This document shows positions 36,965 through 63,880 of a stretch of 64,000 bases of DNA, in pieces; position 1 is the stretch's first letter, and each line of letters opens with the position of its first letter. A program made the translations under genes and the position numbers. Source of the stretch: Bacteroidales bacterium. Its GTDB lineage: Bacteria; Bacteroidota; Bacteroidia; Bacteroidales; TTA-H9. The stretch spans positions 36,976 to 100,975 of the forward strand of contig JAUSOY010000013.1 of the NCBI GenBank assembly GCA_030656615.1. Direction: 5' to 3'. Below the pieces are notes generated by a model. It saw only the letters and a list, made by a program, of their open reading frames with translations, was not told the DNA's origin and searched no databases.

Positions 36965-37789
36965 TCATTCTGCAACGGCAAATAAATCAAAATGCTTCCA
37001 GTTTAACATGTCTTCTTTTACCTTTATGGGAATAATGTCAGCATTGATACTAAAATCGGAAAAATAGTACAAATGGTACCCGAGGGAATGCAAGAGCTCG
37101 AACTGCTCAAATCGCTCTTCGGATGAGTTTTTCCCAAAACATTCGGTAATTACTGTGGGTTTAAACTGTAAAAGAAGATTGGAAATGGATCGGATAATCT
37201 CTTTATCATAGCCTTCGGTATCTATTTTAATGAATTTTAATGTGGATAATTTATCGGCGTGATGGGTTTGCAAGAAGGTTTCAAGTTGTATTCCTTTGAT
37301 TTTTGTTTCGAGGGTATATTTACCATGACGGTTTTTTTCCTCGCTTGAAATCCCTCCATTATTGAAAGAAGCTTCGGAAGAAGTGTAATAAAATGTTCCA
37401 TTCTCCTCGGTTATCGCATAATTGTAAGCAATGATATTTGTTTTGCAGGAATTGAGTTTTGTGTTTTCTGATAAAATTTCAAAAACATACGTGTTTGGAT
37501 CAAAACCCAGAGTTAGTCCATTTTTTCCGGTGACAAGAGCCAGTGAAACGGTCATTTGTCCGATGTTAGCACCGATATCAATTGCAAAATCACCATCTTT
37601 CAGAAACTTTTCAAAAAACCGAATTCGGTCGATGGTAATGCTTTTGGGTTCCACCAGTGGATTTTCCCAATTGGCAAATTCTACCGTTCCGTACGTTCCA
37701 ACTTCGAATGCATCGATTCGTGCGGGGTATTTTTTAGTGATGCGGCGGGCAATTTTTCTTTTGAATGAATTAATGAAATAGTTGTTCAT
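36965..37789 (-). CDS. FkbM-family methyltransferase
   Basis: A 274-aa protein with the FkbM core: GDFAIDIGANIGQMTVSLA (SAM-binding), GFDPNTYVFEILSEN, and LKFIKIDTEGYDKEIIR. Members O-methylate sugars or other small molecules, often in surface polysaccharide pathways. No glycan genes are adjacent. The 36829-36964 gap contains nothing notable. Confidence 0.88.
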   Translation of the reverse strand: MNNYFINSFKRKIARRITKKYPARIDAFEVGTYGTVEFANWENPLVEPKSITIDRIRFFEKFLKDGDFAIDIGANIGQMTVSLALVTGKNGLTLGFDPNTYVFEILSENTKLNSCKTNIIAYNYAITEENGTFYYTSSEASFNNGGISSEEKNRHGKYTLETKIKGIQLETFLQTHHADKLSTLKFIKIDTEGYDKEIIRSISNLLLQFKPTVITECFGKNSSEERFEQFELLHSLGYHLYYFSDFSINADIIPIKVKEDMLNWKHFDLFAVAE

Positions 37790-50688: not shown

Positions 50689-51273
50689 TTATTTGTCATA
50701 TACATAATGACCAATTATTTTAAAACTGAATAAACAGTCTTCCAAAACCTGGCCTGCTCCGATGTTGTGAACGATTAAATGTCTTTTTCCGTCCAGAGAT
50801 TTTTTCTTTACGACTATTCCAATATGAGTTACGTCGCCGCCCAGATTCCAACAAAGGATATCACCAGGTTTGTAGTCATTAGGGTCTTGCGATATTTTCT
50901 TTACCGTTCCGTATCGGGTAAAAAAGGTCATTAAATTTGGTACCCGCCTGTGGTCAATATTTTTGTCCGGAGATGAAAGTCCCCATTTTTTTGGATACTT
51001 TTTAAAATTAACCTTCATGTCTTCATGAACTTCTTTTTGCAGGTCGATTCCCAGTTTTCTGTATGCCCGTATTATAACATCAGTGCAAACCCCTTTGCCT
51101 TTCGGTACGTCGCCATTTGGGTAGTTTATTCTAAAATATGAAGGATCGTATTTGACCTTTTGTTTTATCAAAACGAGCGTAGAGTCTGCTAGTCGATCAT
51201 GGAAATTAGTCTGGCCATTAACTGAACAGATTGTTAGAAAGAAAATAATAATTCCGACTAGTGTCTTTGTCAT
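50689..51273 (-). CDS. DUF1287 exported NlpC/P60-like protein
   Basis: The sequence after the signal peptide (LVGIIIFFLTICSVNGQ) carries the DUF1287 block GKGVCTDVIIRAYRKLGIDLQKEVHEDM, WGLSSPDKNIDHRRVPNL and a His in GDVTHIGIVV, as expected for a Cys-His papain-like hydrolase acting on peptidoglycan or peptides. The ORF track begins at 51294, but the first seven residues (MAVSTHT) are encoded by the junction sequence GCTG^TTAGCACTC beside dinD. The signal peptide begins at MTKT (51273). It is the leftmost gene of the cassette-like array. Confidence 0.8.
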   Translation of the reverse strand: MTKTLVGIIIFFLTICSVNGQTNFHDRLADSTLVLIKQKVKYDPSYFRINYPNGDVPKGKGVCTDVIIRAYRKLGIDLQKEVHEDMKVNFKKYPKKWGLSSPDKNIDHRRVPNLMTFFTRYGTVKKISQDPNDYKPGDILCWNLGGDVTHIGIVVKKKSLDGKRHLIVHNIGAGQVLEDCLFSFKIIGHYVYDK

Positions 51274-51332
51274 TGTATGAGTGCTAACAGCCATCTTCTT
51301 ATAGCCTTTCTATAAAATTGCTGTCATCAAAA

Positions 51333-52168
51333 TTAATTTTTCTTTTTAGGATTTTTCAATAGTTTTTTCTCTTCACCATCAAGTTTCCGTTGTTGTTTCT
51401 TTACATCTTCAGCCGCTGGAAGGTTTTCTGGCAGGATTCCTCTTTGTGTAAGCATATTTCTAACGGCAAGGTTATTGTCGATATGTTCTTTTTCGATTTT
51501 AGTATGACCTTTTAAATCCTTATTTTGAACATTCAGCCCGGTCATTTCGGCAGCTAAATCTTTGGCTTTAATACTGATTGTTGGAAGAAAATCTGCAAGA
51601 GGTCTACTATCAGGCACACCCATTTTACGTTTAAGCATTTGAGTGTTTAACCTGAATAATGCCTGATCACCTTTACTTCGAATTACTGCAAATCCTTGGC
51701 TATCAACACCACGTTCATAAAGAATACCCGAAAGTTGTTTTTCTGTCTGGCTTAATTTCTCACGCGCTTTCACCCGTTCATAGGCCAAAATACGCTGTTC
51801 AACCATTTCAGCTCTACGGGTTTGTACGGCAAAATAGTTTTGAGCAAAGGCAATTTGCTCTTTCCTACTATCTCCATTTTGAGCGATTAAATAACAGGCG
51901 TATCGAGTTAAAGCAATATCATCTACTGGTCTTTCGGTCTTTGAACCTATCTCAACCATCTTCCTGATGTCAGGAAAATGGTTTTCTAATAATTCTCCTG
52001 CATTTGTACATGCATCCTTTGCTTTTTGGATAACTTTTTCAAAGTTCTCCCATTTGCTATATCCCAATAAGTCTTGTAATTCTCGGGTACTCCAGCATTC
52101 AACGCCTTCAAACGCTATGCAGCGGATTCAAATTGGAAGAATAGATGTTTTATTTCATCCGATTTCAT
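51333..52168 (-). pseudogene. dinD: DinD (DNA-damage-inducible protein D) gene with a frameshift
   Basis: The ORF track gives only 244 aa starting at a TTG. Reading further upstream in the same frame gives IAFEGVECWSTRELQDLLGYSKWENF, the conserved BRO-N start of DinD, but no start codon before a TGA. A second frame opens with ATG at 52168 (MKSDEIKHLFFQFESAA) and stops at TAG (52115-52117). Joining the frames near 52120 restores a normal N-terminus, so one base appears to be missing. DinD belongs to the SOS-response repertoire in E. coli. Either a recent pseudogene or a sequencing error. Confidence 0.82.
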
Positions 52169-52276
52169 TTTGCTTACTTTTAAGGTCTATACTTATCAAA
52201 AATCGGTCAAATGTCAGATATTATTCAAGTCTATTATTTTTAACTAAATGGTTCTGTGTGCCTGTCTTTTACACTT

Positions 52277-52643
52277 GGCTATAACGCCAATTCGTCCTAA
52301 AACTTTCTTTTGTAATTACTGTCTATCAAATATATGCTGTTTTTTGAAAATAAAATAGAAGTTGATGTGGTATTCTTGATGATTTTTTTGTGGAAGTTTT
52401 TTGGAGTGCTTTAAAAAAGTGGTTTTGTGACTCATTGTGGCTTTTGGCAGCGATACCCGTACGATTTTGGCTGTAATCCCACAAGTTTCCACAACGAAAT
52501 CTGCATTTTTACTCAAGATGAACTTTCCGGGGATCTGCTCCGGATCATGTCTATGTATATATACGGTAAATACACTGAAAATATACCAACGGAACCGGAG
52601 ATGGTATAGCGTTTAATACTAATTATTGTTTGTTGAATAGCCT
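52277..52643 (-). repeat. Array repeat copy A (long form)
   Basis: Read on the minus strand it ends GACGAATTGGCG^TTATAGCC before dinD. The body is the shared unit plus a second ~240-base segment (TTTTGTGACTCATTGTGG ... GGGGATCTGCTCCGGATC) also found in copy D. A small ORF track entry (52316-52516) lies wholly inside and is not considered a gene. It is downstream of hipA and upstream of dinD. Confidence 0.85.
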
Positions 52644-52666
52644 ACTTGCCTGTGCAATTGTGCTTT

Positions 52667-53968
52667 TTAGTACACATTTAGGTGCAGATTAATTTTTTCT
52701 TGTAAATCGTCAGTCACCTTAGCTTGCGTGGCGTATTTATTCCAGGATTTTACCACAGCGTTAATTTCAGCAATAATTTTATCTCCTTTTTTGATGCTAT
52801 TATTTTTTGCAATAGTCATTAAATCTTCTTTTGTTATACCAAGTCTTTTTCCATTTATACTTAGCGTTTGTTTACTTACCCAGTGATTACTTGGGTCGAA
52901 AGAAAAGCATAGGTCATAAGCTGGGGCTAATCTCCAATTTTCATCTTTTTTTAAAATGAAAGAAAAGTTTTTTGTGTGGTCATCATAATTGGTAGCTATT
53001 ACGTTAAACACCATTCTTCGAAACATTTGTTCGGCTTCAGGATAAGTCAGTCGCAATATTCGCATTGTTTGAAAAACTTGCTCATAACTATACCCATACA
53101 TATCATTGAAATCATAATGTTGTAGACCACACAAGGATTGAATATGATGTTTCGTATTCCCATCTCTATCAAAACGCCTGGTCATAAAATGTGCTCTTCC
53201 GTTTTCTTCTAACATGCGACATTCGCTTATGGTTATGTTACAATCTTTTGCCATGAGATAGTACGCATATTCTACACGCCCCCAGCCCGAGCTTTCGCCA
53301 AACTGTTCACTACTAACACCATCTAATTTAAGCAGCCAATGCTCAAAGCCTTTAGGTACATTTCCTTGTCCTGATTTTACTTCTCCTGTTATGGAATTAT
53401 ATGCAATTACTGCCTTTGGTCGAGCACCACCTGCCGAAGTTCCTGTTTTCAAGACTTCCATCATTGCCTTTTCTTCATCTTTATTTAGCTTGCTTAAAAA
53501 GGCTTCCCGCTCATTAAGCATCTTTTTTGCTACCTCAATAAGTCCATCTAATTCCAAAGAGAAAGTTCTTGTATTTGTTTTAATCTGCGCTGGTTCAAAT
53601 TCTAAAGCACCCATTCCTCTCATGCCTATAAAGCACAATTTTTCTACCGGATTCATGCTATTTTCAGCCCTTCCTTGTTGGACTAACCAAGTGTTAATGA
53701 GTCTGTTTCCATATTTATCAGGTAAAGCATCAGATAATAATCCAGGCAGGCCCTTGAATGTGTCTTCTGTTTCGTTGCGTCCTTTTCTTAGTTCAGGAAA
53801 ACTATAGGTTTGTGCACCTTGAGAAACAGGCATTTTGATAGGCGATAAATCCCATCCTCTTTGAATAAATTTAGAATCGAATTGAAAATATCCCAATTGC
53901 TGTGATTCATCCCAGCGAACAGCTCCAACTAATTCGCCCCATATTTTAATTTCAGCTACATCTACCAT
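52667..53968 (-). CDS. hipA: HipA-type serine/threonine kinase toxin
   Basis: A 433-aa protein with the HipA N-terminal domain (VGAVRWDESQQLGYFQFD), the LSDALPDKYGN motif, the nucleotide loop TSAGGARPKAV, catalytic NYDDHTKNFSFIL (Asp in the kinase site) and the metal-binding LAPAYDLCFS. HipA phosphorylates aminoacyl-tRNA synthetases and induces persistence in E. coli. It overlaps hipB by seven bases, and the pair forms one unit in the array. No exact matching core sequence was found at the cassette ends. Confidence 0.92.
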   Translation of the reverse strand: MVDVAEIKIWGELVGAVRWDESQQLGYFQFDSKFIQRGWDLSPIKMPVSQGAQTYSFPELRKGRNETEDTFKGLPGLLSDALPDKYGNRLINTWLVQQGRAENSMNPVEKLCFIGMRGMGALEFEPAQIKTNTRTFSLELDGLIEVAKKMLNEREAFLSKLNKDEEKAMMEVLKTGTSAGGARPKAVIAYNSITGEVKSGQGNVPKGFEHWLLKLDGVSSEQFGESSGWGRVEYAYYLMAKDCNITISECRMLEENGRAHFMTRRFDRDGNTKHHIQSLCGLQHYDFNDMYGYSYEQVFQTMRILRLTYPEAEQMFRRMVFNVIATNYDDHTKNFSFILKKDENWRLAPAYDLCFSFDPSNHWVSKQTLSINGKRLGITKEDLMTIAKNNSIKKGDKIIAEINAVVKSWNKYATQAKVTDDLQEKINLHLNVY

Positions 53969-54315
53969 CCTGAATCCTTGTTGTTAATGTTGTTTCTTTT
54001 TTGAGGCGAAGCCTGTTTTCTTTGTTTCTTTTTTAATTTGGCGTATTCAATTGGGCTAATTTGCTCTTGAATCTTGAATATATCCATTATGTATAGTAAA
54101 CTCAGTACCCGCAATACCTGAATAAGACTATCTATTCTGATTTTCTCGCCCCTTTCCAATAAACTTAAGGTGGAACGACTTATCCCGGCGTCTGTTGCTA
54201 CCTGGTCTTGTGTTTTGTTTTGATTCAGACGATGTGATTGAATAAAATTTCCAATGGTTTCCATTAGCGATTTATCAGTCATTGCTTCCCACTTTATGTA
54301 TGATTTATCATTCAT
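53962..54315 (-). CDS. hipB: HipB-type XRE antitoxin
   Basis: A 117-aa protein. The helix-turn-helix domain is evident in LNQNKTQDQVATDAGISRSTLSLLERGEKIRIDSLIQVLRVL. A Lys/Gln-rich tail (KLKKKQRKQASPQKRNN) follows. HipB normally binds HipA and represses the operon. It precedes and overlaps hipA. Its 5' region has a promoter core 39 bases upstream. Confidence 0.9.
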   Translation of the reverse strand: MNDKSYIKWEAMTDKSLMETIGNFIQSHRLNQNKTQDQVATDAGISRSTLSLLERGEKIRIDSLIQVLRVLSLLYIMDIFKIQEQISPIEYAKLKKKQRKQASPQKRNNINNKDSGW

Positions 54316-54353
54316 GTTGATTGATTATTAAGGCATATGCATTCTATTTCATG

Positions 54354-54361
54354 CAAAGATA
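54354..54361 (-). promoter_or_regulatory. Bacteroidota -7 promoter core for hipBA
   Basis: TATCTTTG on the minus strand matches TAnnTTTG, 39 bases before the hipB ATG. Nearby A/T-rich inverted repeats could be HipB operators but are not distinctive. Confidence 0.6.
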
Positions 54362-54477
54362 TCAAATATTTTTAAAAAACAAAATATTGAATGAAATATC
54401 ATTTATTGTTCGCTATATATGTCAAGCTTGCATGATTTTTCATACATTTTTTATTTCAGCAGTCTTTTTAGCATGTT

Positions 54478-54631
54478 GCATAACGCGTTCCGCAAATACG
54501 TGCATTGTTGGAGTTTCCCGATGAACGTCCTACGAAGAATTGCTTTTCATCCCGATAGCTATCAGGACTACTTTCCTGTCAATGAAGCACCGAAACCCGA
54601 CTTGCGGGTATTTTGCTGTTAGCTGTTAGCC
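54478..54631 (-). other. attC-like recombination site downstream of the XAC2610-like gene
   Basis: On the minus strand the stretch begins GGCTAACAGCTAACAGC, about 18 bases after the stop, and ends GCG^TTATGCAACATG at the hipBA cassette start. GCAAAATAC near the left end is nearly complementary to GTATTTGC near the right end, which gives the paired R''-L'' and L'-R' arrangement of attC. The length (about 150 bases) is near the upper end of the attC range. An internal palindrome-like CCTGATAGCTATCGGG is also present. Confidence 0.6.
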
Positions 54632-54648
54632 GTTCTTTTCTCACAATA

Positions 54649-55452
54649 TTAAAATTCAGCAAACCATTCATAGCTTTCTATTTTGAGATACTCCGTTGGA
54701 ACTGCATTCAATTTCTCACCGTTCTTTTCAGTCGGTCTGTAGAAACCCTTCTTTGTTTTTATAAACTGGCCCTTTTTGCTAACGTCAGGGTAGATAAATT
54801 CTATTGTGTCCACCTGCAATCCATTCCATTTGTATTTGTAAAGACCAACTTCTCCAGGATGCCCATACTCAACTCCACGAATTATTTTCTCTGTTGGAGA
54901 AAATGTCGGGTTTATAAATTTGTAGTCACTTGTAAAATTTCCATTGTCTGATAGGTTTAGATATACACTATAAACATCTCGTCTGCAACAGCCAGATGAT
55001 GGATACCAGTGAACCAAAAAATCATTGAAGCCGTCTCCGTTTACGTCTCTTATTATATCGTTAATGTATGTCAGACTGCCTTGTTCTCGAGAAATTACAT
55101 GTTTTAAGTTATGGTCCGCAATAAGATACATGTCAATATACTCACACCACGGGACTTGTCTTCGTATTAACAAGTGCCTTTGGCTATTTGAGAACAAATG
55201 TCCAATTGTGAGATTTACAGTCACAACATAAGAACTATCGTCCAGCTGTGTTTTATATTCTTTAAAGTAATTGTCCGATTGAATATTTGCTTTTGCAAGT
55301 TTCATCGCATCTTTCAGCACATTGTCAAGCCGCAAACTGTCGATTCGGGTCTCATCGTCGATTTGTTTAATTCGTTGATTACCAATATTCTGTCCAAATG
55401 AACAAATTGCCAGAAAAAATCCAATTGTCAATATATGTAGCGCCTTTCTCAT
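54649..55452 (-). CDS. Exported XAC2610-like protein
   Basis: A 267-aa protein with a signal peptide (HILTIGFFLAICSFGQ). The central part (YINDIIRDVNGDGFNDFLVHWYPSSGCCRRDVYSVYLN) resembles the XAC2610-like/VCBS-type calcium-binding beta domain. The start codon lies 14 bases after the cassette junction CAG^TTAGCGGT, and no separate promoter core is apparent. Function unknown. Confidence 0.65.
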   Translation of the reverse strand: MRKALHILTIGFFLAICSFGQNIGNQRIKQIDDETRIDSLRLDNVLKDAMKLAKANIQSDNYFKEYKTQLDDSSYVVTVNLTIGHLFSNSQRHLLIRRQVPWCEYIDMYLIADHNLKHVISREQGSLTYINDIIRDVNGDGFNDFLVHWYPSSGCCRRDVYSVYLNLSDNGNFTSDYKFINPTFSPTEKIIRGVEYGHPGEVGLYKYKWNGLQVDTIEFIYPDVSKKGQFIKTKKGFYRPTEKNGEKLNAVPTEYLKIESYEWFAEF

Positions 55453-55465
55453 ATGGCTTACGGTT

Positions 55466-55655
55466 ACCGCTAACTGCAGTTCATCTTAAAACTATCTTTT
55501 GTAATTCCTGTGTATCAAAGATATGCTGTTTATTGAAAATAGAATGGAAGTTGATGTGATATTCCGGATAATTTTTAATGCTGCATTTTTACAGCGGGAA
55601 CTCAGGCACAGCCTATTTTCATAAGCCGACTCAGGCGCAGCCTGAGCCGAACGGG
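55466..55655 (-). repeat. Array repeat copy B
   Basis: Contains the shared unit (from GTAATTCCTGTGTATCAAAG through TGCTGCATTTTTACAGC) and the CTCAGGC...GCCTGAG palindrome, twice in degenerate form. It ends on the minus strand with GATGAACTGCAG^TTAGCGGT before the XAC2610-like gene. Lies downstream of the GT39-like gene. The 83-aa ORF track entry over it is not a gene. Confidence 0.85.
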
Positions 55656-55749
55656 ATACGGAAAAAAGGATGGTTTCGGTGCGCTGGTGGATTCCCGCTG
55701 CTTGACAGGCATGTAGTGTGCGAAGAGGCCGATACATTACCACATGTAG

Positions 55750-57171
55750 CTATTTCTTTTTTAACAACATATAGTCAGTTGTCTGTAATTCTATTATTAT
55801 ATAATCTTGATTAATCGTGTCTGAATAATCATCCTTTCGAATTAATAAATATTCCCTTTTGTTGTTCTTATCCGGGTCTAAACTAACATTTTTATATCGT
55901 CCAAAATATCCATGTAAAGTCCACTCTTGCCACATATTTGGATAAATATTAATTATACTTCCTTCAGGCAATACTGAAAGAATTTTATAAGTGTCTTTAA
56001 TTTTATTTTCTTCTCGTCCAATATGATTCGAGAAATAAAATGATAGTATTATACCTATGAAAAGAATACTATATGATGCCCATTTAAAAAACAAAAATCC
56101 TTTTGATTGATAATTTATATTATTAAAAAGGGAATCTATCAAAGGGTTTATTAAAAGACCTGTACCTATCGCAAAGAATGGAAAGGTAGCAAGTATGTAA
56201 AACCCACTTTGTTTCATGCTAATCATAATTGGTAATACCCCTGTAAGCCCAAGTAAAATAAATACTAATGCTAACTTAGTGTTTCCTATCATTGAATTTA
56301 TAGAAAGCTTCTTACGCCATCCCCAAATCAGAAAAAGCACAAACAAACCAAAAGCAGGTATCAATTCAGAAAGCAATCGTTCTATTATAAAAAAACGCGA
56401 ATCAATTGTTGTAACGTTTTTAATACTATGTATTACTTGTGTATCAATATATTTGAGAAGACGTAATTCTGCATTAGGGAATAATATCACTAATAATATT
56501 AATGGAGCCATGGTAGATATAAATACCCCAATACAGTCAGCAGTCATTTTACGAAATGACATTTGCCTTAATAAAAGCCATAATAAAAACGGAAATGTCC
56601 ATGGGAAAAAAGCGACAAATCCTTTGGTGAGAAATCCCAACGAAAGCATAAATCCGGATAGGAAAATAAAAATGTATTTTTTGCTAATTTGGCTTTTTAA
56701 ATAAAATAAAATCGAAAGTGAAGTAAAAACAGATAATGTGTTTTCGAGTAGATTATTACTACAAGCCCAAATAACGAGAGGTGTTATAAGCCAAAATAAT
56801 AAAGGAATCCAACCATGTTTAAATTTTAAAATTGCCCAAATTTTCAAAATAATATATCCTACGAGTACGAATGTTATAATAGAATAAAGTTTATCGATAA
56901 ACCGACTCTCTCCAAAAAGGGTAAAGAATATGCTTTGTATTCCAAATGCAAGTGGTGGTTGTCCACGAAAATCTGTCATGCAAGTGGCTGTAAAATGCGG
57001 ATTCCAGAATGAGCCAATTCCATTTGATAAATTATGTGCTACGGTCGAATAAATCAATCCATCCATAAACATACCATCTGATAATAAGTTTGGGCTTGCT
57101 ATTATTAAAAATATTCCTATTACAAATAGATAAAATGGTAGTGTCGGTGTAATTTTAAAATTCATTTTCAT
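55750..57171 (-). CDS. GT39-like membrane glycosyltransferase
   Basis: A 473-aa protein with many hydrophobic segments. The first loop contains DGLIYSTVAHNLSNGIGSFWNPHF, and later DFRGQPPLAFGIQSIFF, a pattern typical of GT39/ArnT-like dolichyl- or undecaprenyl-phosphate-sugar transferases, in which acidic residues in this loop are catalytic. It would transfer a sugar in the envelope. As a cassette in the array it is unusually long. No matching cassette core found. Confidence 0.75.
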   Translation of the reverse strand: MKMNFKITPTLPFYLFVIGIFLIIASPNLLSDGMFMDGLIYSTVAHNLSNGIGSFWNPHFTATCMTDFRGQPPLAFGIQSIFFTLFGESRFIDKLYSIITFVLVGYIILKIWAILKFKHGWIPLLFWLITPLVIWACSNNLLENTLSVFTSLSILFYLKSQISKKYIFIFLSGFMLSLGFLTKGFVAFFPWTFPFLLWLLLRQMSFRKMTADCIGVFISTMAPLILLVILFPNAELRLLKYIDTQVIHSIKNVTTIDSRFFIIERLLSELIPAFGLFVLFLIWGWRKKLSINSMIGNTKLALVFILLGLTGVLPIMISMKQSGFYILATFPFFAIGTGLLINPLIDSLFNNINYQSKGFLFFKWASYSILFIGIILSFYFSNHIGREENKIKDTYKILSVLPEGSIINIYPNMWQEWTLHGYFGRYKNVSLDPDKNNKREYLLIRKDDYSDTINQDYIIIELQTTDYMLLKKK

Positions 57172-57248
57172 GTAAGTCGTTTTTTAACCATTGGTTGTAA
57201 AGGGCTGTGTAAGCTTCCCATTTTTAGCACAAATCAGCAATAAAGCAT

Positions 57249-57404
57249 ACCACAACAATCAGTTCGTCTTAAAACCTTCTTTTGTAATTACTGTGTATCA
57301 AATATATGCTGTTTTTGAAAACAAAATAGAAAGTGATACGATATTTCGGATAATTCTAATGCTGCATTTTTGCAGCGGGAACTCAGGCGCAGCCTGAGCC
57401 GAAA
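57249..57404 (-). repeat. Array repeat copy C
   Basis: The shared unit with the hairpin GCTGCATTTTTGCAGC and the palindrome CTCAGGCGCAGCCTGAG. It ends on the minus strand with GACGAACTGATTG^TTGTGG upstream of the GT39-like gene. Downstream of the thioesterase. Confidence 0.88.
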
Positions 57405-57550
57405 GCGGTAATGGCTTTAATTTGTCACGTTTGCAGGGGTGCTGATAAAGACAATTATTGGATAGGTGTCATTCGGGATTGCGAGGTTCTGCGGTTGAAA
57501 TATTCACTGAAAGCTGCAGTACAGATAGTTTTTATTGTGCATTCGGGCTT

Positions 57551-58300
57551 TCATATTCTTTCCTTCCATAATGTTTTTGCCGTTGCACAAACTTTATTGT
57601 TCTTTTGAGTCTTAATGGTATGGATAAAGGAGTTATCATTTATATCCCTTTCAGTAAAAGACAAAATTTCATCACCATATTGAGCCTCAGCAATAAATCG
57701 TCCATCGATTGAATGCAAATAATAATTATCAATAATATGATCTGGAATTGACTCTATTAGCCATTGCAAATATCTAATATTGTTTACATGCTGGTTTGTA
57801 TCAACATCATACCGATTGACATTAAACGCCTTGATGTGTATTTCAGAGTCAATTGGTTTAATTTTTTTAGTAATGTCATAATTTATACTTTCATCAATAT
57901 CGTAAGACCATCTTTCCTTAATTGAATCAAATATTCCAACAGGCCTTCTCCTCATAATATCAAAGAAAACCCATAAACCTTTAGCTTGTCCTATAATATT
58001 TCGTTTTTCATCATAAATAATGTTTTCCCTAATTCCTTTAACCAGCGAATAACTGGACAACCATGTTCTAATGATGATTTTTTCCTTATAGCTGGGATAG
58101 CGATGCATTTTCAAAATTCCAGAAAGTAATACCCATCCAATATTTTGATTTTCGAGATCATATAAACTATGATTTATTGAATAACAATGGTCTGCAGCTG
58201 TTTCTTCAAGTAAGGTTAAAATAGTAGTCGGTGCAGCCTCTCCGAAATTATTCATTTCGAAATATCTCAGCTCAAATTGTTTTTCAAAATAATTTTCCAC
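57551..58300 (-). CDS. Acyl-ACP thioesterase (FatA-like)
   Basis: A 249-aa protein with two hotdog folds. The GTG start gives MENYFEKQFELRYFEMNNFGEAAPTTIL, typical of bacterial acyl-ACP thioesterases, and the second half has VNRYDVDTNQHVNNIRYLQWLIESI (the conserved N/H active-site block). It releases free fatty acids from acyl-ACP. Its cassette ends pair exactly: TTGTGCAT at the downstream side and ATGCACAA at the start side. No promoter core is visible. Confidence 0.88.
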   Translation of the reverse strand: MENYFEKQFELRYFEMNNFGEAAPTTILTLLEETAADHCYSINHSLYDLENQNIGWVLLSGILKMHRYPSYKEKIIIRTWLSSYSLVKGIRENIIYDEKRNIIGQAKGLWVFFDIMRRRPVGIFDSIKERWSYDIDESINYDITKKIKPIDSEIHIKAFNVNRYDVDTNQHVNNIRYLQWLIESIPDHIIDNYYLHSIDGRFIAEAQYGDEILSFTERDINDNSFIHTIKTQKNNKVCATAKTLWKERI

Positions 58301-58351
58301 AAGCTATCCTTTTTAATGGTTGTTTAAATGTTCGATTTATCTTTCACCACG

Positions 58352-58750
58352 ATGCACAAAGTCAGTTGGGTTTAAAACCAACCCATATAATTACTGTGTA
58401 TCAAAGATATTCTGTTTATTGAAAATAGAATGGAAATTGATGTGATATTTCGGGTAATTTTAATGCTGTATTTTTGCAGCGATAAACCGGCACAGCCTGA
58501 GCCGAACAGGGTGCTTCAAAAAAGTGGTTTTGTGACTCATTGTGGTTTTTGGCAGTCGATACCCCTGCGATTTTGGCTGTAATCACACAAGTTTCCACAA
58601 CGAAATTTGCATTTTTATTCAAAATGAACTTTCCGGGGATCTGCTCCGGATCATGTCTATGTAGATATACTGAAAACATACTGAAAATATACCAGCAGAA
58701 CCGGAGATGGTATAGCGCTTTCTACCAAATATTGTTTATTGAATAGCCTG
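58352..58750 (-). repeat. Array repeat copy D (long form)
   Basis: Carries the shared unit plus the same second segment as copy A (TTTTGTGACTCATTGTGG ... GGGGATCTGCTCCGGATC). On the minus strand it ends CCCAACTGACT^TTGTGCAT before the thioesterase. Separated from DUF4349 by a perfect 9-base hairpin (CCTGAGATG / CATCTCAGG). The 87-aa ORF track entry inside is not considered a gene. Confidence 0.85.
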
Positions 58751-58814
58751 TCGGTTGGGGAGTTTGTCGAAGTATTTTTCCTGAGATGCTTACATCTCAG
58801 GGCAGCCTAATCGA

Positions 58815-59621
58815 TTATGTGGCGTTTTTCTTTTTATTTCTTCGTCGTCTTATGATTAAATAAACTGTCACAAGTCCGATGAGAATAAATGTCCAAAGAT
58901 GTGTCAGTCCGATGAGAAACCATAAGAAGCCGTCCCAACCGCCCTTGATTGCTTGTCCGAATTTGGTTGTAAAACGAAATGCAGAAGTTGTCTTTTGGTA
59001 GTAAGTTGCTGTCAAGGTGCTGAATGATATTCTGTCCTTTAAATATTTCATTTGCCCTTCAACCGATTCAATTTCCGTTCGCAATTGCCCAATTTCTTTT
59101 TCAATGGTAAGGATTTCGTCAACCTTTGTCGCTTGTTTTAAAAGTTCTTTATACCTGTCTTCAAGTTCTTTTTTAGTTTTTATTCTTGCGTCAATATCAA
59201 TGTACTCCGCAGTCACATCAAGAACATCAATATTTTTACTGTCAAGTTTGTCCGCACTTTCGGAAATTGTTTTCAGAAGTAAATCGAAATGCTGGGAAGG
59301 GACACGAATAACTATACGATGTTCAAGTCTGTCGGAATAGTCATTAACATTGTCTTTTGAAATGTAGCCATTTAATTCCTGAACTGTCTTTGAGATTAAA
59401 GAATTTGTCTCGTTGATGTTTGTTGTCTCAAAACTAATTTCTCCTTCCTTGATGATTTTTCTGTCAACCACACCCTCAATTTTTTCAGCAGGCTTCTGAT
59501 TTGTCTGAGGAGACTCTTGTATAGCAAGGTCTGTCGATGCCCCTTTATATTCTTGTTTTTGTCCGCACGAATAAATTGTCAAGATAGTCAACACGGTTAA
59601 AATTCTAGAAATATTTTTCAT
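58815..59621 (-). CDS. DUF4349 membrane-anchored lipoprotein
   Basis: A 268-aa protein with a lipobox (TIYSCGQ), the DUF4349 core (DRKIIKEGEISFETTNINETNSLISKTVQELNGYIS and VPSQHFDLLLKTI), a long coiled coil (IKTKKELEDRYKELLKQATKVDEILTIEKEIGQLRTEIESVEGQ), and a C-terminal membrane helix (WFLIGLTHLWTFILIGLVTVYLIIRRR). The stop codon lies inside the cassette core GCCACATAA, whose reverse complement TTATGTGGC is the start of the same cassette. Function unknown. Confidence 0.88.
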   Translation of the reverse strand: MKNISRILTVLTILTIYSCGQKQEYKGASTDLAIQESPQTNQKPAEKIEGVVDRKIIKEGEISFETTNINETNSLISKTVQELNGYISKDNVNDYSDRLEHRIVIRVPSQHFDLLLKTISESADKLDSKNIDVLDVTAEYIDIDARIKTKKELEDRYKELLKQATKVDEILTIEKEIGQLRTEIESVEGQMKYLKDRISFSTLTATYYQKTTSAFRFTTKFGQAIKGGWDGFLWFLIGLTHLWTFILIGLVTVYLIIRRRRNKKKNAT

Positions 59622-59697
59622 TGCCGTTTGATTTTACTTTTTCTAATTAATTTAATTGGCTATTGTCTGTATCAAATTCTCTTTGTTGATTTAAAAT

Positions 59698-59810
59698 GCC
59701 ACATAATGGCAGTTCCCCGTTAAAACGGGGCAAGCTGTCTAAAAACCTTCTTTTGTAATTACTGTGTATCAATTAAATACTGTTATTTTTGAAAATAGAC
59801 CGGGTAATAT
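59698..59810 (-). repeat. Array repeat copy E (short)
   Basis: Starts at the GCCACATAA core, with a CCCCGTT/AACGGGG hairpin replacing most of the GACGAACTG arm (read GGGGAACTGCCA^TTATGTGGC on the minus strand). The shared unit is truncated and overlaps the end of DUF3795. Confidence 0.7.
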
Positions 59811-60202
59811 TCATTCTTGCTTCCACATTTTAAACAAATCGCTCGATGAACACATAATAAATGGCCACACTCAGAACATTTCCATTTTTCTTTTTCACGA
59901 ATAATGAATGAGTCTAATCCAATTTCTTTTATTTTTTCAAGGTTTTGAATTGGACTTTCTCCATATTTGCTTATATACCGCTTATCCAAATTTTTAATTC
60001 GCCTACAAGGAAATTTAGTACAATCATAGCAAAGTAATTTGTCGTTACCTTTCTTTTCGGCGCATGATTTTATACTACAAACGGTACAATGATATGGCTT
60101 ATTACCAGTATGATTACAGCCCACACATTTATTTTTGTCTCGTTGAAAACCCAAACAAATATCACAAATTACACCACATGGGGCAATACTTGTAGTATTC
60201 AT
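59783..60202 (-). CDS. DUF3795 cysteine-rich protein
   Basis: A 139-aa protein with many zinc-type Cys (APCGVICDICLGFQRDKNKCVGC, CTVCSIKSCAEKKG, LLCYDCTKFPCRRIKNLDKRY) and a C-terminal zinc ribbon (WKCSECGHLLCVHRAICLKCG). The family is uncharacterised. The last few codons (YYPVYFQK) and the stop fall in repeat E, so the C-terminus may have been set by the repeat. It follows the methyltransferase by 79 bases. Confidence 0.85.
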   Translation of the reverse strand: MNTTSIAPCGVICDICLGFQRDKNKCVGCNHTGNKPYHCTVCSIKSCAEKKGNDKLLCYDCTKFPCRRIKNLDKRYISKYGESPIQNLEKIKEIGLDSFIIREKEKWKCSECGHLLCVHRAICLKCGSKNEYYPVYFQK

Positions 60203-60281
60203 AATTTTATTTCCAGTGATGATTTTTACTCAATATAGATTTTATTGCGTGGTATGTTGCGTATTCGTGCTTTATTATCTG

Positions 60282-61049
60282 TCATTTTTCGGCTATAACA
60301 AGCATTTCGAAATCTTCTGTCGTTAACTTGTCGTTTCTCGAAAACTCCCCAAGCTTGGCTCCAAAAATTTCAATCTTTTTGTACCCAAGCGATTTTAATA
60401 ACCACGTGATTTCGCATGGAATATAGTATCTTTCGTTACATTCGAGAACTTTTTTGTTTCCAAAATCATCTTCAAATTCAGTTACATTGTAATCGCGGAA
60501 TGTCATTAAATCAAAGGTGTTGCTCCGATAAGTTGCATTGCCCTCTTCTGTTGCTGATGAACAAAACTCCTCAACAGAATGATACAAGGGGAATAGTCCA
60601 TTTAAGGTTGTGAATATGAACTTGCCATGTTCATTTAATGATTTTGTAACGTTTTTTAGTATCTCAAAATTCATTTCATCGGTTTCCATTAATGGGAATC
60701 CTCCTTCACAAAGCATTATTGCAATATCGAACTCATTGTTGAAAGTTAGTTTTCTGGCATCCTGTTGCTGGAAGTCTATTGTTAAATTATTACGATCTGC
60801 TTTTTCTTTGGCTTTTTGAAGTTGTGTTTCTGACAAATCAATACCTGTTACAGAATATCCCCGCTTTGTTAATTCTATTGAGTGCCTCCCAGTGCCGCAG
60901 CCGACATCTAAAACTTTTTGTGATTTGTCAAATTTTAATTCAGTTTCAATAAAATCGCACTCGCCAATAGTTCCTTGTGTGAAATTTTCATTGTCGTATT
61001 TCTGTCCATAATTTTCGAACAGCGATTCGTACCATTGTTTTTTGTTCAT
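60282..61049 (-). CDS. SAM-dependent methyltransferase
   Basis: A 255-aa class I methyltransferase with motif I (VLDVGCGTGRHSIELTKRGYSVTGIDLS) and FQQQDARKLTFNNEFDIAIML. C-terminal half resembles small-molecule methyltransferases. Substrate unknown. A 5' leader with a promoter core precedes it. It shares a cassette unit with DUF3795 or is a neighbouring cassette whose junction has been lost. Confidence 0.85.
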   Translation of the reverse strand: MNKKQWYESLFENYGQKYDNENFTQGTIGECDFIETELKFDKSQKVLDVGCGTGRHSIELTKRGYSVTGIDLSETQLQKAKEKADRNNLTIDFQQQDARKLTFNNEFDIAIMLCEGGFPLMETDEMNFEILKNVTKSLNEHGKFIFTTLNGLFPLYHSVEEFCSSATEEGNATYRSNTFDLMTFRDYNVTEFEDDFGNKKVLECNERYYIPCEITWLLKSLGYKKIEIFGAKLGEFSRNDKLTTEDFEMLVIAEK

Positions 61050-61107
61050 ATCGAACTATTTTATATTAATAGCTTTGTATTCCGATTTCCCTTCATGTGT
61101 GTGCTCT

Positions 61108-61184
61108 GGTTTTTATTCATCGTCCTGACACAAATATAAACAGAATGGTTTAAATCCTCAAGATGTTGAAAAATAATGTTTAAC
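61108..61184 (-). repeat. Duplicated promoter-bearing leader, copy 1
   Basis: On the minus strand it begins at a cassette-type junction with TTAAACATTATTTTTCAACA and holds TTG, a 20-base spacer and TATATTTG, then GTCAGGACGATGAATAAAA. Its near-identical copy lies at 62258-62332 upstream of the T9SS protein gene. It is likely the promoter for the methyltransferase. Confidence 0.8.
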
Positions 61185-61308
61185 AGGAGAATGGTATAAC
61201 CATCGCCGCATACCGGCAAGGACTACCCAATTTCGTACTACAGGTATTTGGCGGAATAAAGCTGGAAGCCCTTACGACTCTTCGCATGAAGTCTTACTTA
61301 TTAGCAAA
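61179..61308 (-). other. attC-like site downstream of the T9SS protein gene
   Basis: The 130-base stretch starts on the minus strand with TTTGCTAATAAG and ends CTCCTG^TTAAAC. TTTGCTAA is the reverse complement of the start TTAGCAAA of the same cassette. The length is within the normal attC range (57-141 bases). Internal hairpins include GACTTCATGCGAAGAGTC and ATGGTTATACCAT. It lacks the GACGAACTG arm of the other copies. Confidence 0.55.
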
Positions 61309-61314
61309 CGTTTG

Positions 61315-62220
61315 TTATTTTTTGATGACTTTAATAGTAGTTAGTGCTGCTTTTCTATTCATCAATTGTAAAAGATATATCCCAGCCCTCATATCCGAAA
61401 AGTCAACTTTTATGCTTCCACCTGTATATTGTAGAAACTTCAATTTACGCTTATTCCCTAGCATATCACAGACCATAATTTGGTCAATGATATCAGAAGA
61501 ATTCATTTCAATCGCCAATTGGTCAATAATTGGATTGGGAAATGTCTTTATACTTAAACGTGATTTCTGTGAAGTTAAGCCTAAGGATAAATCGCATTTG
61601 TAACCATAATAAGGATAATATGCTGTATCATTCAGTGTAAAACATAACAATTCTGCAGGAAATTCAGCGTTTGGGAATGTTTCAAGTAAGCCACTGTTAA
61701 ATCCAACACCTTCAATTAGTAATCCAGAGCCACAATTGCCCTCGCTCAGGTTAAAAATTTTCCTAAAACTACCTCCAACAAGAATACTGTCGATGCTTGT
61801 AACGATTATACCATCATTCCGATTATTATATGTCAAAGGTAAAGTATCTCCTACATTTAAGTCAAAATCATACAGTAAATCCTCCCAACCTTGATTATTC
61901 ACATACATTTTATTGTTTTCCTGGCGTATCAGAATGCTAAATCTATCGTAAAATGTTGAACCTTCACACATATATGAAGGCGGGGACGCCATCCAACTGT
62001 AATTAATTCTATGCCTATCGAATACTTTTTTATAATTATAATTGCCAATTGTAGTATCACCATTTATATAATACATGTAGTTATTTATCTCAAGACAGCT
62101 CCCATTGCCACCAAACCACATTTCCTGCCTCCATTTTGGACTATTCTCAAGATAATTTACAATTTGAGCATTAACGGTAAATGATATGATAAATGCCAGA
62201 AGTGTAATTCTTATTTTCAT
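61315..62220 (-). CDS. Exported protein with T9SS type A sorting domain
   Basis: A 301-aa protein. The signal peptide (ITLLAFIISFTVNAQ) and the C-terminal sorting domain (SIKTFPNPIIDQLAIEMNSSD...RKLKFLQYTGGSIKVDFSDMRAGIYLLQLMNRKAALTTIKVIKK) are clear, so it is probably secreted by T9SS and attached to the surface. The middle resembles no named family. Its cassette is bounded by exact 8-base inverted sequences. Confidence 0.85.
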   Translation of the reverse strand: MKIRITLLAFIISFTVNAQIVNYLENSPKWRQEMWFGGNGSCLEINNYMYYINGDTTIGNYNYKKVFDRHRINYSWMASPPSYMCEGSTFYDRFSILIRQENNKMYVNNQGWEDLLYDFDLNVGDTLPLTYNNRNDGIIVTSIDSILVGGSFRKIFNLSEGNCGSGLLIEGVGFNSGLLETFPNAEFPAELLCFTLNDTAYYPYYGYKCDLSLGLTSQKSRLSIKTFPNPIIDQLAIEMNSSDIIDQIMVCDMLGNKRKLKFLQYTGGSIKVDFSDMRAGIYLLQLMNRKAALTTIKVIKK

Positions 62221-62257
62221 ATGAAATCCTGACTAAATATTTGCTAACCTTATAGTG

Positions 62258-62332
62258 TTTTATTCATCCTCCTGTCACAAATATAAACATAAAATCTAAA
62301 AATGCGCAAGGTGTTGAAAAATAATGTTTAAC
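62258..62332 (-). repeat. Duplicated promoter-bearing leader, copy 2
   Basis: It resembles the leader at 61108-61184 from TTAAACATTATTTTTCAACA through TATATTTG to GATGAATAAAA. The 21-base TTG to TATATTTG spacing fits a Bacteroidota promoter. It lies between the F junction (GCG^TTAAAC) and the T9SS cassette start (GG^TTAGCAAA), so it might be a promoter-only insertion. Confidence 0.8.
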
Positions 62333-62515
62333 GCCAGTTCGTCTTAAACCCTTCTTATAAAATGCCTGTGTATCAAATACATGCTAGTTTTGAATACAAA
62401 ATAAAAATTGATGTGCTATTCCGGATATTTTTTGATGCTGCATTTTTGCAGCGATAAACAGGCACAGCCTGTTTTCATAAACCGACTCAGGCAATGCCTG
62501 AGCCGAACGGGTTCC
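62326..62515 (-). repeat. Array repeat copy F
   Basis: The full shared unit with the hairpin GCTGCATTTTTGCAGC and the palindromic CTCAGGCAATGCCTGAG. On the minus strand it ends GACGAACTGGCG^TTAAAC, the best-conserved junction. Downstream of Fic. Confidence 0.88.
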
Positions 62516-62583
62516 TTTCAGGACAAGCAATGCAGACCACTCAGAGTCCTATTTGTTACCAACTGAGCGTTCATAATTTATCA

Positions 62584-63708
62584 TTATCTAAATAGTTTTA
62601 AATAATTATCAAATACATACATTCGACCCCTCTGTCCACCGGTAACTTCTTTTAATATTTCTGCTTTTTCAAGTAGTTCAATAAGTTTATATGATGATGG
62701 CATCGAAAGACCTGTCGTACTACAGACTTTCTCAGCATTAATCACAGGTCTTTGATATAAATAATTCACAACCTTTTGTGCATTCCCTGCCCTGCTTCCT
62801 AAAATTTGAAACGTAAGTTCGTTTTGTTTTTGTAATTGTAATATGCTGTCAAAGGTTCTTATTCCTTTTTTTGCAGTTTCTATGATTCCAACCAAGAAGA
62901 ATTTAAACCATTGAGTCATGTCATTTTTGTCCCTAACATTCATCAGGTTTTCATAATATAATTTCCTGTGATTTTCCATAAAATCAGAAAGATAGAGAAT
63001 TGGCTTTTTAAGAATACCTTTGTTAACAAGGTAAAGTGGAATAAGTAAACGACCAACTCTTCCATTACCATCAAGGAATGGGTGGATGGTTTCAAATTGG
63101 TAATGCACCAATGCGATTTTTAGCAATTCTGGGAAATAAATGTTTTCATTATGGAGAAATTTCTCAATATCACTCATTAATTCAGGAACTGTTGTATGGA
63201 CAGGGGGTACAAAAAGAGCGTCATTAATAGTTGCTCCCCCAATCCAATTTTGACTATTTCTAAATTCACCTGGTTGCTTTTTCTGTCCTCTTACGCCTTG
63301 TAATAGTACTTGGTGTGTTTCACGAATCAGTCTTGATGAAAAGGGCAATTTTTCTAATGCATCTATTGCCAATTCCATCGCTTTTATATAATTCTGAACT
63401 TCCTCCCAATCATCACGTTTATCCAAAGGAATATCGTCTCTGTCAAGCAACGCCTCTTCCATATTAGTTTGCGTTCCTTCTATCTTGCTGCTTTGAGTGG
63501 CTTCTTTAAGTACATGCATACTGATAAACAATTCAATATTGGGAATGTAGTTCGAATACATGTCCAGTCTACCTAATTCTCTATCTGCTTGACTAAGTAA
63601 TTGTAAAACTTCCATACTTTCTACTTTCCATTGACGATTAATCAATGTAGGTTGGAAGCTTTTATAATATCCTTGATTGATATAATGACCAGATTTGAAT
63701 TGTTTCAT
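62584..63708 (-). CDS. Fic-family protein (class II AMPylase-like)
   Basis: A 374-aa protein. The Fic motif IHPFLDGNGRVGR supplies the catalytic His and nucleotide-binding residues, and an inhibitory helix motif (SSKIEG, in the S-x-x-x-E-G pattern) is at the N-terminal side, as in class II self-inhibited Fic proteins. A C-terminal winged-helix region (VINAEKVCSTTGLSMPSSYKLIELLEKAEIL) is typical of Bacteroidota members. It probably adds AMP to a target protein. A promoter core is just upstream. Confidence 0.93.
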   Translation of the reverse strand: MKQFKSGHYINQGYYKSFQPTLINRQWKVESMEVLQLLSQADRELGRLDMYSNYIPNIELFISMHVLKEATQSSKIEGTQTNMEEALLDRDDIPLDKRDDWEEVQNYIKAMELAIDALEKLPFSSRLIRETHQVLLQGVRGQKKQPGEFRNSQNWIGGATINDALFVPPVHTTVPELMSDIEKFLHNENIYFPELLKIALVHYQFETIHPFLDGNGRVGRLLIPLYLVNKGILKKPILYLSDFMENHRKLYYENLMNVRDKNDMTQWFKFFLVGIIETAKKGIRTFDSILQLQKQNELTFQILGSRAGNAQKVVNYLYQRPVINAEKVCSTTGLSMPSSYKLIELLEKAEILKEVTGGQRGRMYVFDNYLKLFR

Positions 63709-63724
63709 TTTTATGTTTTTTAAA

Positions 63725-63732
63725 CAAAGATA
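63725..63732 (-). promoter_or_regulatory. Bacteroidota -7 promoter core for fic
   Basis: TATCTTTG on the minus strand matches TAnnTTTG, 16 bases before the ATG, within the fic cassette rather than the array repeat. Confidence 0.6.
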
Positions 63733-63825
63733 ACCCTTGTTTAAGTATTTTGTAATTATCTTAAATAAGGGCGTACTCTATTTAAGTTTAACACTGAAAT
63801 TAAAACAGTGCTGTTCCCTCGCCTT

Positions 63826-63880
63826 GTTGCCAACGCCCCTTCGTCTTAAAACCTTCCTTACTAATTAGAGTCTGTCTTTA
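63826..63880 (-). repeat. Array repeat copy G (degenerate end)
   Basis: Retains only the arm: on the minus strand TTAGTAAGGAAGGTTTTAAGACGAAGGGGCG^TTGGCAAC before fic, where other copies read TTACAAAAGAAGGTTTTAAGACGAA. Similarity fades to the right, so it may be an attI-like site or the end of another cassette. Confidence 0.65.

Follow-up and report, generated by a model that had tools for sequence, protein, structure and literature searches.

In classical integrons, short gene cassettes of unrelated content are arrayed on one strand and meet at G^TTR junctions (the caret marks the junction), with matched R'' and R' boxes, palindromic attC sites with L and R boxes, and an attI site beside a tyrosine recombinase, the integrase IntI, at one end. 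In Treponema integrons, the integrase gene is transcribed toward attI and the cassettes (PMC3607928). In published surveys, integrons are all but missing from Bacteroidetes and the question is raised why certain clades have none, and the only complete integron that IntegronFinder 2.0 reports in Bacteroidetes proper is that of Salinibacter ruber M1 (PMC9024848); an 11-taxon attC modelling study holds no Bacteroidota model. Here we analysed a 64,000-nucleotide (nt) stretch, the window (positions 36,976–100,975 of contig C40, JAUSOY010000013.1), from the metagenome-assembled genome (MAG) of a Bacteroidales bacterium, the host (GCA_030656615.1; 3.56 Mb in 90 contigs). Nine cassette units with eleven genes, one or two in each, occupy 51299–63833 of the window, all on the minus strand. 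An earlier note had read the region as an integron-like cassette array in a Bacteroidota chromosome; the host genome has both canonical attC sites and units whose R' and R'' ends match, which bears this out, and the region is likely the 3' portion of a cassette array that belongs to an integron lineage of the Bacteroidota.

The arrays of the host and its relatives share with classical integrons the same-strand cassettes, the G^TTR junctions, the matched boxes and the attC palindromes and, in relatives, an attI-like site beside a tyrosine recombinase at one end. They differ in that this candidate integrase lacks the IntI-specific segment and does not qualify as IntI, that the attC sites are ~119 nt long with a Bacteroidota consensus, and that the R boxes are longer and cassette-specific. 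As in Treponema, the recombinase reads toward attI, but the Treponema enzyme is IntI proper, whereas here another recombinase group is found. The host resembles clusters of attC sites lacking integron integrases (CALINs) in having attC sites and no recognisable integron integrase, except that most of its sites are interrupted by transposon ends and that the missing integrase may be an effect of assembly. The S. ruber M1 integron belongs to the same phylum and is found by standard IntI and attC models, whereas the present arrays are common elsewhere in that phylum.

The units open with G^TTR and close with YAA, and 9–12 bases inside the start are complementary to the end of the same unit. In the best-preserved units, the bases following G^ are the reverse complement of the unit's own end (for example, TTACCAACC..GGTTGGTAA and TTATGGTGC..GCACCATAA). 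Across 18 host units, the true pairings of start and end score higher than shuffled ones (permutation p=0.0002), and 7 of the 18 score 10–11 of 12, with a recurrent C opposite A. In the window, the match is best in the DUF4349 cassette (11/12) and partial in the thioesterase, cassette 7 and dinD-like cassettes. In other genomes, a matching G^TT start at ≥10/12 was found for 36 of 111 ends, compared with 2.2% of controls, several of the box and stem tests drawing on matches from within one and the same loci. Thus a core box, G^TTRNNN, and an inverse box complementary to it lie within one cassette, as in classical integrons. These matches support the TTR junctions, which the earlier note had pointed out and which the alignment of all repeat copies confirms as NCG^TTR in the best-preserved units, as cassette boundaries. 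In addition, the thioesterase gene has a paralogue on host contig C60 that is 87% identical, the likeness spanning almost exactly the predicted cassette and the flanks being unrelated.

Canonical attC sites are found elsewhere in the host and in its relatives. A stem detector, which gave zero matches in 48 kb of the window outside the array, identified 35 sites, most of them 117–123 nt long, in loci that carry IntI or the repeat element AAYAAATAGGANTMTGAGYGGT described below. The sites have the order R''-L''-loop-L'-R' and the consensus YAACA-L''-loop-L'-NNACG or CCG^TTR, with a canonical length of ~119 nt. Stem and boxes were each recovered by selecting on the other: of 32 starts in other genomes that were picked by box only, 12 reach an L''/L' stem score of ≥24, compared with 3.1% of random GTT sites, and stem-picked sites, in whose selection the R' boxes played no part, match a downstream YAA end perfectly (9/9) in 8 of 26 cases, compared with 0.9%. 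Top-strand mismatches comprise 56 A.C and 18 G.T, an A.C becoming a G.T wobble on the bottom strand, and 20 of 28 sites are more stable (lower energy) as the bottom strand; the mismatches would thus favour bottom-strand folding. Covariation in alignment A1, with 10 of 10 pairs compensated, is not counted as proof because its sites were chosen by the stem detector; the box matches, the reciprocal box and stem tests and the attI test below are free of this circularity.

We built an attC covariance model from 28 training rows; E-values of this and the profile models are rough, and attC counts per genome are lower bounds. It detects eight attC sites in the host (E from 7e-4 to 2e-20; three are training rows), each on a separate contig of this fragmented MAG. 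Among 393 genomes of the order, one per species, 238 (61%) carry attC. The near-complete genomes G303 and G224 contain long same-strand attC arrays of ~48 kb and ~55 kb, respectively, and, like the eight host sites, their sites have both R and L boxes and lie between cassettes. A Bacteroidota-type attC with a box-matched cassette is also present on L237, an IMG/VR contig classed as viral.

In G303 and G224, one co-directional tyrosine recombinase sits at the 5' head of the array. Head recombinases score 167–220 bits against the IntI model TIGR02249 (cut-off 265), in two stretches that skip an insert; they fall below the cut-off because the IntI-specific segment (model positions ~181–237) is missing. 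All five head proteins tested score higher against TIGR02249 than against the models of XerC and XerD (L285 only slightly), the archaeal XerA/integron model NF040815 gives the top score in three of the five, and the nearest solved structures are an XerC-like protein (4a8e) and Vibrio IntI4 (2a3v). A head-recombinase profile of five rows (threshold E≤1e-65) matches 140 of the 393 genomes (36%), of which 128 also have attC (odds ratio 13.9, Fisher p=9e-23, kinship not corrected). In 14 of 16 same-contig cases, the recombinase is upstream of and co-directional with the nearest attC among the matches listed. In a tree, IntI proteins form one clade (100/100) apart from the head proteins, which split with weak support, so that the tree does not show a single monophyletic head group. 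Some head recombinases, such as that at L289:9819-11675 (minus strand), have long N-terminal extensions with repeated GRW/KxCWYxxY-like motifs and a weak DUF5710 match. IntI-type integrases with the full IntI segment are encoded at L116:8830-9804 and L117:8490-9464, each gene preceded by a repeat that recurs within its locus.

Sites resembling attI were marked by eye, for 18 head genes, as the first G^TTR past the stop codon and are of two classes: GATATTTACTAG^TT within ~30 nt of the stop, and TATAAACAAG^TT or similar ~80–150 nt past it. The start of the first cassette matches a downstream YAA end perfectly (9/9) in 7 of the 18, compared with 0.3%, and L'' arms come after those ends. In these relatives, the array would thus start at the G^TT directly downstream of a recombinase gene reading toward it. 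By analogy with IntI, the head recombinase would take attC as a folded single strand and recombine it with attI at G^TT, and in this way excise and insert cassettes. Arrays of this kind appear to be run by a recombinase family of their own and not by the classical integron integrase. We think it probable that Bacteroidota possess their own widespread integron lineage, with ~119-nt attC sites, attI at the 3' end of a co-directional recombinase gene and arrays of tens of cassettes; its integrase would recombine folded attC without the IntI-specific domain, standard finders would miss it, and an IS91-like transposon family would have specialised on its attC sites.

The repeats that separate the window cassettes are of another nature. 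They all point one way, seven aligning over 37 nt and six over 96 nt. A 139-nt query gave 45 matches in the host at E≤10, comprising ~36 full repeats on ~18 contigs, many on short contigs or at contig ends and in runs spaced 0.8–3 kb, and none in 8 other genomes of the host's family. The repeat is thus genuine, present in many copies and, among the genomes compared, confined to the host, and its position at so many contig ends implies that assembly has fragmented the array. With all copies aligned, the common sequence ends on the right at NCG^TTR, with divergence beyond, and begins, directly after many genes, at YAA^TAAATAGGA. The right part, which ends ..GACGAACTG^NCG^TT, has no L''/L' stem in the host copies and may derive from a transposon copy that lost its interior, or may have another origin. 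Many junction repeats contain repetitive extragenic palindromic (REP)-like palindromes (GTTCGGCTCAGGCTGTGCCTGAGTCGG; for example, at 57360–57420 and 55600–55660). The repeats also contain TATATTTG (for example, at 57295–57320), which resembles the Bacteroidota -7 promoter motif TAnnTTTG; they may drive the following gene.

We found the left element of the repeat, AAYAAATAGGANTMTGAGYGGT, outside the host as well, in at least 114 stretches; almost all come from Bacteroidota, among them the isolates Tangfeifania, Prolixibacter and Seramator, and four viral contigs also carry it. It is the right terminus of a ~2.6-kb transposon whose left end reads GTTGAACTAAATCCCG and whose two genes encode a tyrosine recombinase of ~305 amino acids (full-length copies mostly 75–90% identical) and an IS91-type transposase (L163:2217-3395; Y2_Tnp 6.9e-53, Zn_Tnp_IS91 1.6e-27). 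In attC sites, the transposon or short remnants of it separate YAA from C-L'', which leaves intact L'' arms after its left end; judged from the flanks, the insertion point would be YAA^C. The two-gene transposon occupies this R''/L'' border at L163:1322-3653 and in ~26–31 of 118 element-bearing loci. In the host, C53 starts within the transposon recombinase gene (16/16 residues at the end), and transposon left ends on C53 and C27 are directly followed by attC. Described IS91 members with an extra tyrosine-recombinase gene likewise have a Y2_Tnp and Zn_Tnp_IS91 transposase beside the recombinase, and structured ends, but the present element is inserted at the attC R''/L'' border. These elements are possibly an attC-targeting IS91 group, of which we found no description in the literature searched. 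By its sequence, then, the left part of the visible window repeat, whose conserved arm the earlier note had remarked on, is an IS91-like transposon terminus and not attC; no window stretch passes the attC model, which also argues that the visible repeats are not attC. Most host sites carry such an end at the R''/L'' border, and these ends are the repeats first noticed. A structured RNA, considered for the element TAAATAGG..GTTGAACTAC, was ruled out, this being the terminus of the same transposon.

Several observations weigh against reading the region as an integron array. In the window, the box match is poor in the fic, Por-tail, PMT_2 and hipBA cassettes, whose ends are decayed or cannot be identified. 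The search with attC models that the earlier note had suggested succeeded elsewhere in the host, but nothing in the window passes; the best match, at 54484–54618, reaches E=0.29, below threshold, with a stem score of 23, the opposite strand being the one scored. Window-type sites, having no L''/L' stem, may be inactive. The host encodes no IntI above the TIGR02249 cut-off, and the head-recombinase profile is not matched in it, while G134 and G309 of the same family carry the enzyme. Furthermore, 110 genomes have attC matches without a head recombinase, behind which MAG gaps or divergent enzymes may lie, and the 393 genomes are mostly MAGs and phylogenetically not independent. No attI site was found in the host MAG. 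Its tyrosine recombinases are XerD, a protein resembling XerC and an integrase with an arm-binding domain, as carried by integrative elements; together with the different recombinase carried by most array-bearing relatives, this speaks against the classical integrase that had been placed outside the window. Either assembly gaps or a loss would have severed the host array from its integrase.

Three other explanations were weighed. IS91/ISCR-like one-ended transposition could have brought the genes together in a genomic island, with only transposon-end, miniature inverted-repeat (MITE) or REP repeats between them and no integron-type recombination; the IS91-like terminus in the repeats, the REP-like palindromes and the lack of a canonical attC in the window would fit. 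One-ended transposition, however, does not predict cassette-specific complementary ends, the transposon end sits at a constant point of attC sites beside intact L'' arms, transposon-free attC arrays are common, and the box and stem tests in other genomes had already weakened this explanation, which we regard as improbable.

It is also quite improbable that the cassettes were placed by a TIGR02249-type IntI, since lost or lying outside the assembly. Such an IntI does occur in 3 of 50 genomes carrying AAYAAATAGGANTMTGAGYGGT, and at L270 an attC similar to one on host C90 lies ~3 kb from an IntI; yet IntI is found in only 5 of the 393 genomes (E≤1e-60), one of them on a foreign-looking contig, against 238 with attC, counts that rule it out as a general driver, and the L116 and L117 loci, read in detail, have no attC match nearby. 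The IntI of G270 (L115) was rejected as native and judged foreign because it lies in GC-rich classical integron sequence. That the tyrosine recombinase of the IS91-like element moves the cassettes seems very improbable: it is conserved at ~75–90% identity across orders, its transposon lies in or adjoins arrays, and it is present in the host (at the C53 end), but it belongs to a two-gene transposon inserted in single attC sites and was not seen heading arrays, a place taken by another family with an attI-like site.

Our literature search found no account of such a Bacteroidota system; most subscription papers and preprints were outside its coverage, so novelty is only probable. With attC in 61% and a candidate integrase in 36% of the genomes surveyed in one order, a major gene-capture platform in a dominant environmental phylum may have been overlooked. 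The arrays supply a detectable pool of Bacteroidota cassettes, let one ask in a natural setting whether folded single-stranded attC can be recombined without the IntI-specific domain, and bring to light an apparently attC-targeting transposon family.

Table 1. Features of the array in window coordinates, in the direction of the cassettes.
Feature	Position	Strand	Description
Contig-terminal repeat	63863-64000		copies also terminate host contigs C21, C44, C82
Cassette 1	62556-63833	-	Fic protein gene 62584-63708; start G^TTGGCAACA, end GTTGGTAA^CAAATAGG; box match decayed
Junction repeat	62332-62555	-	IS91-like transposon end remnant (CAAATAGGACTCTGAG..) up to ..GACGAACTGGCG
Cassette 2	61301-62331	-	Por-secretion-tail protein gene 61315-62220; end box degenerate
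Junction sequence, divergent type	61184-61300	-	one copy in the host genome except for a 33-nt stretch
Cassette 3	59783-61183	-	methyltransferase 60282-61049 and DUF3795 59783-60202; 3' box not found
Junction repeat	59707-59782	-	CCCCGTTTTAACGGGG hairpin adjoins junction
Cassette 4	58815-59706	-	DUF4349 gene 58815-59621; boxes TTATGTGGCATT / AACGCCACATAA, 11/12
Junction repeat, long type	58360-58814	-	other copy at 52285-52643
Cassette 5	57535-58359	-	acyl-ACP thioesterase 57551-58300; boxes TTGTGCA/TGCACAA
Junction repeat with REP-like palindromes	57256-57534	-	
Cassette 6	55750-57255	-	PMT_2/GT39-like transferase; 3' box not resolved
Junction repeat	55474-55749	-	
Cassette 7	54619-55473	-	267-amino-acid protein without assigned family, gene 54649-55452
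attC-like site without transposon end	54484-54618	-	..GCTAA^C, short L''/L' arms GCAAAATAC..GTATTTGC, ..AACGCG^TT
Cassette 8	52667-54483	-	hipB 53962-54315 and hipA 52667-53968; 3' box decayed
Junction repeat, long type	52285-52666	-	
Cassette 9	51299-52284	-	dinD-like gene; boxes TTATAGCC / GGCTATAA, 8 contiguous; array 3' end

The features of the array are listed in Table 1. The genes are functionally unrelated and the repeats between them related and one-way, as first described, although the eleven genes or pairs then counted are nine units with eleven genes, and the array spans 51299–63833 instead of 51294–63880, a DUF1287 gene (50689–51294) lying just beyond its edge. The window reaches the right end of C40 (100,975 bases), so the rightward course of the array cannot be traced; the terminal repeat, probably the end of another insertion sequence, is common to several host contig ends, which explains the assembly break. 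Cassettes 3 and 2 have a leader in common. Homologues of the window cassette genes in other genomes mostly lack cassette ends, so their comparison gave no evidence of transfer, and an Rfam search matched nothing within the array and, in the element-bearing loci, no more than a tRNA. The genes originally named (fic, hipBA, the thioesterase, the GT39-like gene, DUF4349 and DUF3795) were recovered, except that the dinD-like call has little backing from Pfam, with Bro-N scoring 23.2 bits against a cut-off of 25.6. Near its start, the dinD-like gene (51333–52284) runs through MKSDEIKHLFFQFESAA into a stop, and homology is picked up again at GVECWSTRELQ; the gene is apparently frameshifted there.

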